64,000 nucleotides of DNA from Bacillus nitratireducens (GTDB lineage: Bacteria > Bacillota > Bacilli > Bacillales > Bacillaceae_G), in assembly GCF_001884135.1 (NCBI RefSeq), contig NZ_MAOC01000091.1, positions 186,001 to 250,000 on the forward strand, read 5' to 3'. Position 1 is the stretch's first letter, and every line of letters starts with the position of its first letter. Both the position numbers and the translations under genes were made by a program. Positions 777 to 3,491 of the stretch are shown here, piece by piece. The notes beneath the pieces were generated by a model, which had not been told where the DNA came from, did no database searches, and was given only the letters and a program-made list of their open reading frames with translations.

Positions 777-806
777 TCTACAATAATCAGAAAATTAAGT
801 TATAAT
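777..806 (+). promoter_or_regulatory. Candidate sigma-A promoter for leader peptide and EamA gene
   Basis: TCTACA at 777-782 and a perfect TATAAT at 801-806 are separated by 18 bases and lie 33 bases before the leader peptide ATG. This is the only good promoter between the divergent SH3 gene and the transporter. It would put the whole 839-976 leader in the transcript. Confidence 0.55.
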
Positions 807-838
807 GTCATTATAAAAAAAGAAAGGAGACTACGCTC

Positions 839-889
839 ATGTACTACAACACTTCATTCGAAAACGATCAACCTGTAGTCCGTCTATAA
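839..889 (+). CDS. Leader peptide MYYNTSFENDQPVVRL ahead of EamA transporter
   Basis: A 16-codon frame starts with ATG at 839 behind a strong ribosome binding site (AAAGGAGA, about 8 bases upstream) and ends with TAA at 887-889. Its last four sense codons (875-886) overlap the first arm of a set of competing hairpins that can hide the ribosome binding site of the downstream transporter. A good ribosome binding site on so short a frame, together with the placement of the arms, suggests a regulatory leader peptide like those ahead of erm genes. The inducer that might stall the ribosome is unknown. Confidence 0.65.
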   Translation: MYYNTSFENDQPVVRL

Positions 890-971
890 TCTAAGACGGG
901 CATTCATATAACAAGTGCACTATGCCTCGTCTTAGGGAATAAATCATAACCCTAAAAATAGACGGAGGTAA
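878..971 (+). promoter_or_regulatory. Four-segment translational attenuator candidate
   Basis: Four segments can pair in two exclusive ways. Segment 1 (878-885) pairs with segment 2 (894-901), and segment 3 (923-932) pairs with segment 4 (960-970, one bulged G), which contains the GGAGG of the EamA gene; this second stem is stacked on TTAGGG/CCCTAA (932-937 with 950-955). Alternatively segment 2 (891-903) pairs with segment 3 (922-935) in a 13-bp stem with one bulge, leaving GGAGG free. Segment 1 lies in the leader peptide codons, so a stalled ribosome would favour the open form. Segment 1 also matches 958-965 perfectly over 8 bases. No U-run follows, so this looks translational, not a terminator. 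Confidence 0.6.
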
Positions 972-976
972 TTCAA

Positions 977-1864
977 ATGAAACAAACAATTTTAGGTGCT
1001 ATATGTTTATCTCTAGCAGCAAGTATATGGGGCGGTATGTACGTTGTTAGTAAATACGTACTCGACTTTATCTCGCCACTTACACTCGTTTGGCTACGCT
1101 TTATTATCGCTTTTGTTGTTTTATATGTAATTTTGAAAATAACTGAAAAAAAGCAAAAGAAAAAAGTAACCATCCACAAAAAAGATTGGCTATTATTTGC
1201 TTGGATTGGATTCATCGGGTATTTCATTTCAATCACATGTCAATTTATCGGAACGAAATTATCCGATGCTCATACAGGCTCCTTAGTGACATCAGCTACA
1301 CCTGCATTTATGGTTATATTTGCAGCGCTCATTTTAAAAGAGAAACTAACTACTCGTAGACTTTTATCAACTATAATAGCGACACTCGGTGTCATTATCG
1401 TTATCGGATGGGATATTGAAATCGGCTCCTATTTTATCGGTTCAATCATTTTAGTTGGAGCTGCTATTACGTGGGCTTTACTGTCCATTTATGTAAAAAT
1501 CGCTTCAGCTCGATTTTCATCTTTAATTATTACAACGTACGCAATATTTTTTTCACTCTTTTTCATTACACCTTTTATGGTATGGGAAGTTCAAACAAAT
1601 CCTATTGAACATATGAACATGTATGTAGTATTGGGCGTACTCTATTTAGGAATCGTCTCAACTGCAGGTGCATTTTTCCTTTGGAATAAAGGATTAGAAT
1701 TAATGGATGCTAGCATCGGCTCATTATTTTTCTTCTTTCAACCTATCGTCGGTTCAATACTTGGCTGGCTCCTATTAAATGAGACGTTAAGCAGTAACTT
1801 TTTCATTGGTGGTATCCTTATTATATGTAGTGTTATAATTACTACTTTTGAAAAGCAAAAATAG
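977..1864 (+). CDS. EamA/DMT family transporter (10 TM)
   Basis: This 295-residue protein has about ten hydrophobic helices arranged as two EamA repeats (roughly residues 5-140 and 150-290). It shows family signatures such as WGGMYVVSKYVL near the N-terminus, WLRFIIAF, and the final FFFQPIVGSILGWLLLNETLS. It is an inner-membrane drug/metabolite transporter, probably an exporter of amino acids, nucleobases or small drugs; the substrate cannot be read from sequence. The start ATG has GGAGG 8 bases upstream, and that site is the target of the leader hairpins. It is the only gene of its transcription unit. Confidence 0.9.
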   Translation: MKQTILGAICLSLAASIWGGMYVVSKYVLDFISPLTLVWLRFIIAFVVLYVILKITEKKQKKKVTIHKKDWLLFAWIGFIGYFISITCQFIGTKLSDAHTGSLVTSATPAFMVIFAALILKEKLTTRRLLSTIIATLGVIIVIGWDIEIGSYFIGSIILVGAAITWALLSIYVKIASARFSSLIITTYAIFFSLFFITPFMVWEVQTNPIEHMNMYVVLGVLYLGIVSTAGAFFLWNKGLELMDASIGSLFFFFQPIVGSILGWLLLNETLSSNFFIGGILIICSVIITTFEKQK

Positions 1865-2441: not shown

Positions 2442-3296
2442 TTACGCACTCCAATGCGATGGACGGGACAATAATTTCGGCAATTTCGTATGTTTGTCCC
2501 CTTTCGCCGCGTTAATTTGAACTTGCGTAAGAAAAATACTATTTGTAAAATCCGTCCCGCGAATATCTGCATCTCGCAAATCTGCTCCGATGAGATCCGC
2601 TCCCCTTAAATTTGCATCTCGTAAATTAGCCGCAATAAGATAAGCTCCTCTTAAATTTGCTCCTTGTAAATCCCTCTTTTTAAGGTTAGCTCCCATAAGA
2701 TCTGCCCCTCGGTGACTGATTCGTTTTTTACGTGCAGCATTCATTTCCTTCCATACTAATTCACTCGTCTCTAAAAGGAGAACATTCACTTCCGCTCGGT
2801 GTAATGGCACATTTACTTCCATTAACTCATCTGGACTTAAATTAGAAAGACGCTCAGTCTCTTCAATTGCTTCCTTCAGCTCTTTATGAATTGTCTGTGT
2901 CGCCTTTAATAGAATAGCCTCATTCAAATACCACAGCATTTCATGAAGCTGATGCATAACCGGAAAAGCATCATACATTTCTCTCGCATGCTCGGCATCT
3001 GTCCGCCAATCAATTCCTTTAAACGTAACTTGAGAAATCTTTTGCCCAGCACCGAAACATTCAAATACTGTACAACCTTTATAGCCTTTTCCTCTAAGAT
3101 CTCTATGTATACTACATTTATAATCTGATTGTAAATTTGTGCAAGGTTTACCACCATCTTTATTCACCGCGAAATCTACTGATGCTGCAAACGGTAATGC
3201 CACACAACATAATCCAAAACATTTTTCACAATCCGCTTTTAAACTATTGTAATTTACATCCTCTTCTACACGAAAATAGTCGTTATGATTAGTCAA
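2442..3296 (-). CDS. Pentapeptide-repeat protein with N-terminal cysteine cluster
   Basis: Residues 1-110 hold many cysteines (CEKCFGLCC, then KPCTNL, YKCSIH, GCTVFECFG), a pattern that resembles the metal-binding CxxxCxxC motif of YkgJ-like proteins. A helical linker follows. The C-terminal third is about 12 pentapeptide units of the A(D/N)LRG type (GADLMGANLKKRDLQGANLRG...). Such repeats form a right-handed beta helix. The best start is TTG at 3296, eight bases after AGGGGG, giving 284 residues; a longer GTG-started frame from 3347 has no ribosome binding site. Function unknown; a metal-cluster module joined to a pentapeptide helix is seen in the B. cereus group. Confidence 0.8.
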   Translation of the reverse strand: MTNHNDYFRVEEDVNYNSLKADCEKCFGLCCVALPFAASVDFAVNKDGGKPCTNLQSDYKCSIHRDLRGKGYKGCTVFECFGAGQKISQVTFKGIDWRTDAEHAREMYDAFPVMHQLHEMLWYLNEAILLKATQTIHKELKEAIEETERLSNLSPDELMEVNVPLHRAEVNVLLLETSELVWKEMNAARKKRISHRGADLMGANLKKRDLQGANLRGAYLIAANLRDANLRGADLIGADLRDADIRGTDFTNSIFLTQVQINAAKGDKHTKLPKLLSRPSHWSA

Positions 3297-3491
3297 AATA
3301 TATACCCCCTGTTGTCTTTTGACTATTTCATAATATTCCAACTGCACTAAATAATCAATTTTAAAACAAATGGACCTATTTCATTTCAAACAACAACATA
3401 ATCCATCTATTTCTTTTCATTTAAAAAGGACACCCACTACAATATTAATTATAATTAAATTAAGAACTTTCAAATAACGAGGAGGATTACA

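Follow-up and report, generated by a model that had tools for sequence, protein, structure and literature searches.

Among the closest described systems is the ermC attenuator, in which a short leader (ErmCL) with its own ribosome binding site is followed by four RNA arms and no terminator. When a ribosome stalls on that leader, arm 1 is masked and arms 2 and 3 pair with each other, which exposes the ribosome binding site of the gene downstream. A second group of related systems consists of arrest peptides such as SecM, ApdA/ApdP and TnaC, which combine a decisive proline with conserved residues near the peptidyl transferase centre. Known bacterial arrest peptides that respond to small molecules are few, and all of them have been instructive as regards ligand recognition by the ribosome. 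Two GC-IGR surveys present uORFC-6-1, the leader of hflX in Bacillales, together with other uORF candidates (PMC8632094, PMC6429828). This hflX leader contains an Arg-Leu-Arg motif, and antibiotic stalling has been proposed for it.

Here we analyse a leader peptide that precedes an EamA/DMT transporter gene in a stretch of 64,000 nucleotides from Bacillus nitratireducens, hereafter the window. An earlier note on this DNA had read the locus as an Erm-like translational attenuator. Comparison with related loci and RNA folding make it highly probable that the locus is a translational attenuator driven by nascent-peptide arrest, with the leader acting as a short, probably ligand-dependent arrest peptide.

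Leader, transporter and neighbouring genes

The elements of the locus are as follows.

777–806, plus strand: candidate promoter TCTACA-18-TATAAT of the leader–transporter transcript, 10 of 12 consensus matches
825–829, plus strand: AGGAG, ribosome binding site of the leader, read from the sequence, with the ATG 9 nt further on
839–889, plus strand: leader ORF encoding MYYNTSFENDQPVVRL, 16 codons and TAA, read from the sequence
857–874, plus strand: conserved arrest-motif codons FENDQP, from residue and codon counts over 46 leaders and from control stretches
964–968, plus strand: GGAGG, ribosome binding site of the transporter, inside arm 4, read from the sequence
977–1864, plus strand: EamA/DMT family transporter of 295 aa, Pfam EamA in two stretches

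The transporter scores 163.9 bits with Pfam EamA, for which the gathering cut-off is 28.2 (E 3e-48), and matches TIGR00950 at E 6e-30, under the curated cut-off of that model. A search by sequence for solved relatives returned none at E 0.001. The promoter is a weak candidate, six such sites occurring in 700–2000 against a chance expectation of 6.0. No terminator-like site was detected on the plus strand of 839–979 with a simple consensus scan, and no phage DNA matched positions 1–24000 of the window. On the minus strand, a divergent gene for a 100-aa SH3-domain protein (469–771) adjoins the leader promoter region, and an ORF at 2442–3347 contains cysteine in the first half and ends in pentapeptide-like repeats, both judged by eye.

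Conservation and spread of the FENDxP leader

With the transporter as query against a genome collection, the best 80 of 431 confirmed loci were taken, the closest relative among them being 71% identical. Scanning of 400 nt upstream revealed a short leader matching F..D.P at 41 of these 80 loci as well as in the window, and four more leaders carried the variants LENDQP, LEKYRP, EWDVP and YENDRP. The leader with its own ribosome binding site that had been noticed earlier in the window has therefore homologues at 45 of the best 80 of 431 loci, which together with the window make up the 46 leaders referred to below. One locus with an LDNDVP frame (L071), its start codon unchecked, was scored as leaderless. 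Glutamate was found in all 42 of the first leaders and asparagine in 40 of them, neither residue being required by the search pattern F..D.P. Over the 46 leaders the codons of the motif change synonymously (AAT 22 and AAC 20, GAT 34 and GAC 11, GAA 39 and GAG 7), the four proline codons occur 15, 13, 13 and 5 times, and the residues 3' of the proline are widely variable.

Control stretches of the same 80 loci gave a consistent picture. FEND.P appeared on the sense strand within 250 nt upstream at 39 loci, and was absent both from the antisense strand of that region and from either strand of 500 nt of gene and downstream sequence. The looser F..D.P occurred upstream 41 times in sense and never in antisense; the 500-nt control stretch contained one sense and six antisense occurrences. 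As assigned, the leaders span only 12–18 residues, and the stretch before the motif differs in length, as in MLFEND and MYFKPLFEND; this variation suggests that the motif exerts its effect close to the peptidyl transferase centre. Other natural variants include FEIDHP, FEIDTP and LIENDVP. None of the leaders examined contains a run of codons for one amino acid, the mark of classical starvation attenuators. The remaining 35 of the best 80 related transporters, from Exiguobacterium, Geobacillus, Geobacter and others, have no recognised leader, and hence this transporter can be regulated otherwise.

In a transporter tree rooted at its midpoint, with 23 of 82 inner branches open, the x residue of FENDxP tracks the transporter clade. 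It is valine or isoleucine in one deep group (Alicyclobacillus, Paenibacillus, Priestia plasmids, Pelosinus and Desulfosporosinus) and glutamine, rarely arginine or threonine, in the other (Anoxybacillus, Clostridium, Sporolactobacillus and the window), with two exceptions, both from Aneurinibacillus. The presence of the leader is clustered on this tree, with 18 changes where shuffles gave 27.2, and this distribution suggests that the cassette is old and has been lost repeatedly. The leader is found in C. ragsdalei (L013) and is missing from its close relative Clostridium ljungdahlii (L015, upstream of 3001), where the upstream sequence is, judged by eye, presumably similar to the end of a TnpB-type transposon gene.

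The wider spread was searched with two covariance models at E 0.001, which catch leaders ahead of unrelated genes only if the RNA arms of these resemble the models. Matches were obtained in 34 of 398 genomes from the class that contains Metabacillus (35 matches, five of them not fetched), in 15 of 200 from that of Pelosinus, in 11 of 82 from that of Desulfosporosinus and in four of 291 from that of a Clostridiaceae genome, where just one had a leader; six of ten genomes picked through the loci also gave matches. The 63 loci fetched in this way (L081–L143) include some duplicates, either of one place or of loci already collected; in 57 of the 63 the leader stands directly upstream of the same EamA family. 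Leader and downstream gene were read independently for L081–L130, and the EamA gene was found first for L131–L143. The other six have neither leader nor EamA gene, with E-values of 7e-5 or worse. Apparent leaders in L131 (FEHDGP) and L133 (FENNVP) were rejected as chance matches in other reading frames, and no leader was seen when L114, L132 and L143 were checked. At L130 (1501–1580) a startless leader remnant, IYFKPLFEND, runs by eye into the apparent interior of the transporter gene in a deletion-like manner. As regards plasmids, 81 records carry a relative of the transporter, all below 60% identity, and the leader was present in four of the five records inspected, with Bacillus badius, Priestia and Niallia represented.

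For each locus the one or two nearest flanking ORFs were examined, 87 in all, and their Pfam families comprise EamA (7), AzlC (3), MFS (3), spore germination permease (3) and streptomycin adenylyltransferase (2), and no ligand hint or common resistance context emerged from the listed families, that is, the 25 commonest of 124. The seven EamA ORFs constitute a second EamA gene adjoining the presumably leader-controlled one, and two of the 87 ORFs match aminoglycoside 6-adenylyltransferase families.

Predicted RNA arms and ribosome position

Four arms were delimited in the predicted fold of the window.

878–885, plus strand: arm 1, in the last leader codons, pairing with 894–901 over 8 bp in the minimum free energy (MFE) structure
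890–903, plus strand: arm 2, of which 894–901 pairs with arm 1 and 890–903 with arm 3
922–937, plus strand: arm 3, the anti-Shine-Dalgarno arm, of which 922–936 pairs with arm 2, and 923–932 and 933–937 with arm 4
950–970, plus strand: arm 4, holding the GGAGG at 964–968, of which 960–970 pairs with 923–932 and 950–954 with 933–937

The region 822–985 folds at −36.5 kcal/mol, compared with −24.48 (sd 3.26) in 200 dinucleotide shuffles, none of which was equally low (z −3.69). Its MFE structure contains 1:2 and 3:4 together and buries the GGAGG within 3:4, as the earlier note had claimed; the overlap of arm 1 with the codons at the leader end, also claimed there, is evident from the coordinates. 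When the P site was placed on Q11, P12 or V13 in masked folding, 2:3 formed between 890–903 and 922–936 (14 bp, or 13 bp for V13) and 3:4 was lost, and with the P site on D10 or L16, 3:4 stayed. The proposal that a 13-bp 2:3 stem frees the GGAGG thus holds as to the predicted switch, of 13–14 bp, and needs amendment as to the open state, in which the GGAGG has left arm 3 yet a weak 5-bp pairing of 949–953 with 964–969 persists. Folding begun at the F codon yields as MFE a 1:4 pairing around a nested 2:3, which gives a role to the eight-base match of arm 1 to the site that had been remarked upon. According to these folds, the window has two predicted ways to close the transporter site, 3:4 and 1:4.

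RNAalifold, run on alignments of the whole region with 22 Q-type and 16 V-type rows out of the 46, recovered 3:4 and little or none of 1:2. Changes on both sides affected two of 12 predicted pairs in one of these alignments, two of seven in the other, and 3 of 14 in ten V-type loci. Column-wise covariation of the 1:2 hairpin in 13 chosen Q-type rows amounted to 0.295 against 0.269 in shuffles (99/500). Both the missing 1:2 and the weak column counts can be explained by the sliding of the arms relative to each other, and for this reason register-free tests were used, covering 1:2 and 2:3, in which partners were swapped between loci or the own arm was shuffled; dinucleotide-shuffled arms were added to guard against a bias towards the own partner in G+C-rich loci. 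The own 1:2 pairing reached −13.45 kcal/mol against −8.88 with swapped partners (none of 2000 permutations as good, n = 46) and −8.10 with dinucleotide-shuffled own arm 2 (none of 100 shuffle sets as good), and it beat 95% of its own shuffles in 29 of 46 loci. The own arm 2 was the best of the 46 partners in only seven loci and among the top three in 19, and it was near the worst in L013 and L056. For 2:3, tested in 43 of the 46 rows after three with a spacer below 60 nt had been left out, the own pairing gave −11.63 kcal/mol against −9.94 swapped (0 of 2000 permutations) and −10.10 shuffled (0 of 100 sets), with just 10 of the 43 single loci beating 95% of their shuffles. Desulfosporosinus loci L074 and L079, together with L139 and L140 of that class, present a compact form in which the leader stop lies merely 26–42 nt ahead of the assigned transporter start; in L074 (2920–3003) one hairpin, of the leader tail with the bases just before GGAGG, stands in place of the four arms.

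The strong structure of 822–985 could also be expected of a metabolite-binding riboswitch or a protein-binding RNA in which the leader were a fortuitous ORF. Such an origin is extremely improbable, given that no Rfam family matched the 64-kb window at gathering score, that the residues of the peptide are kept while codons and leader tail vary, and that the alignments conserve the motif codons, the GGAGG region and its complement, and no core beyond these.

The relation between peptide and RNA was explored by computing the accessibility of the transporter Shine-Dalgarno site with the P site at each leader codon, under equilibrium folding and with a mask comprising 16 nt from the first base of the P-site codon and everything 5' of that codon. 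In the first test (n = 41; L006, L055, L064, L072 and L079 were dropped because no Shine-Dalgarno site was detected near the assigned start), mean accessibility was 0.154 unmasked, 0.433 with the P site at x and 0.400 at the proline, compared with 0.145 seven codons before the proline and 0.12–0.14 at P+4 to P+6, and shuffled spacers gave a flat profile of 0.29–0.35. When all 46 leaders were kept, some of them with misplaced sites, the same peak was obtained at a lower level (0.37 at x, 0.36 at P, 0.20 unmasked). A replication used 41 of 42 further non-redundant leaders from genomes and plasmids (L128 was dropped on the same ground), a set partly dependent on the first in that most of its members were found via models from that set, including the 3:4 pairing. 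It gave 0.056 unmasked, 0.337 at x, 0.300 at the proline and 0.06–0.08 at P+4 to P+6, with shuffles at 0.24–0.32. The gain at x exceeded 0.1 in 27 of 41 leaders in the first test and in 31 of 41 in the replication. The opening at the peak is modest, at 0.34–0.43, and little higher than the shuffled level of 0.27–0.31, the distinctive feature being closure elsewhere.

In these models, the transporter site is predicted to be open with the ribosome on the conserved peptide and shut before and after it. That the RNA geometry points to the conserved part of the peptide is the strongest evidence in this analysis, and speaks against simple translational coupling, where any ribosome on the leader would melt the structures and open the transporter site. 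The closeness of leader and transporter and the overlap of the arms with the leader would suit such coupling. It is nonetheless very unlikely, as a ribosome at the leader end (P+4 to P+6) leaves accessibility as low as without a mask in both tests, and as coupling would not conserve a peptide. Conservation, synonymous change, register-free pairing and the stall-position test strongly support the four-arm attenuator logic, the leader frame and the link to a DMT exporter put forward in the earlier note.

Proposed mechanism and relation to described systems

In the mechanism that we propose, the leader would be translated constitutively. Without a signal, the ribosome would reach the stop codon in the loop of the 1:2 hairpin and depart, whereupon 1:2 and 3:4, as predicted, would form and presumably shut the transporter Shine-Dalgarno. 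A small molecule may act on the ribosome bearing FENDx in such a way that the bond to proline, or the next step, halts, leaving x in the P site and Pro-tRNA in the A site. The stalled ribosome would then mask arm 1, 2:3 would pair and the exporter would be translated, and could clear the inducer or a related metabolite. We favour x over proline in the P site because x is the variable position amid fixed F, E, N, D and P, and because modelled accessibility is slightly higher at x. Some signal appears to be needed, since a constitutive stall would keep the exporter always on. We infer that the ribosome halts at the motif in response to a ligand and that this ligand, or a relative of it, is what the exporter handles. 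As to the identity of the ligand, we give about equal odds to a ribosome-binding natural product and to an endogenous metabolite; the drug or amino acid that the earlier note named as inducer is to be taken as a hypothesis.

A stall without any ligand could result if the leader sensed translation itself, slow prolyl transfer under low charged tRNA-Pro or low EF-P holding the ribosome at the proline. Proline is a poor acceptor, it occurs in all 46 leaders, though the search patterns demanded it, and the RNA predicts a stall at x or P. We consider this reading improbable, however, since there is a single proline codon instead of the run seen in classical attenuators, E-N-D is kept as residues with synonymous change where codon or tRNA sensing would need none, and an exporter would be an odd response to proline shortage. 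Macrolide-type arrest, in which a tunnel-bound drug would halt the ribosome at XP(X) as in erythromycin-dependent pausing, likewise seems rather unlikely. To our knowledge EamA proteins do not act as macrolide pumps, the listed families of the 87 flanking ORFs provide no common resistance context, and the two flanking aminoglycoside 6-adenylyltransferases do not act on macrolides. An inverse toeprinting study describes an erythromycin-dependent general XP(X) class with proline in the P site (PMC6238534), to which the fixed proline and the RNA preference for x or P in the P site would correspond here, but XP(X) does not need F-E-N-D, the most conserved part of the leader.

It is rather probable that FENDxP represents a new class of short ligand-dependent arrest peptide across several Bacillota classes, which together with its EamA exporter would form a self-contained sensor–exporter cassette for a molecule that targets the ribosome close to its peptidyl transferase centre; in the compact Desulfosporosinus-type version the switch would be a single hairpin. 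The motif is unusually clear and short, the exporter points to the kind of ligand, and the natural variants FENDQP, FENDVP, FEIDHP, FEIDTP, FENDTP and YENDRP are available for comparison. Identification of the ligand would also suggest a substrate for this EamA family.

With uORFC-6-1 the present system shares a short conserved leader and an RNA structure ahead of a gene, but motif and gene differ, Arg-Leu-Arg and hflX there, FENDxP and EamA here. The words EamA and DMT are absent from the main text of PMC8632094 and PMC6429828. Likewise, literature listings and the beginnings of abstracts, subscription papers and preprints aside, describe neither a leader peptide of an EamA transporter nor FENDxP, in keeping with the earlier view of a DMT-transporter attenuator as not previously described.

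The likeness to SecM, ApdA/ApdP and TnaC lies in conserved residues close to the peptidyl transferase centre and a decisive proline. In contrast to those peptides, the leaders considered here have 12–18 residues, with as few as two before FEND (MLFEND), and are too short for protein-export sensing; this comparison concerns arrangement.

Like ermC, the system of the window has four arms, no terminator and a leader equipped with its own ribosome binding site, and its predicted pairings exclude one another in such a way that the ribosome binding site downstream is either buried or freed. It differs in that the arrest motif is FENDxP and not the ErmCL sequence, and FENDxP matches no Erm leader that we know of. 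The target is an EamA exporter instead of a 23S methyltransferase: the Erm leader family is defined by an erm methyltransferase downstream, and EamA occupies that position in the window and in 57 of the 63 model-fetched loci. Arm 1 lies 3' of the arrest motif, in the last leader codons, and in the window it can also shut the site directly through 1:4. The description as an Erm-like attenuator is thus apt for the mechanism, which on the predicted structures is most likely of the ermC type, and not for the target, by which this is not an Erm leader.
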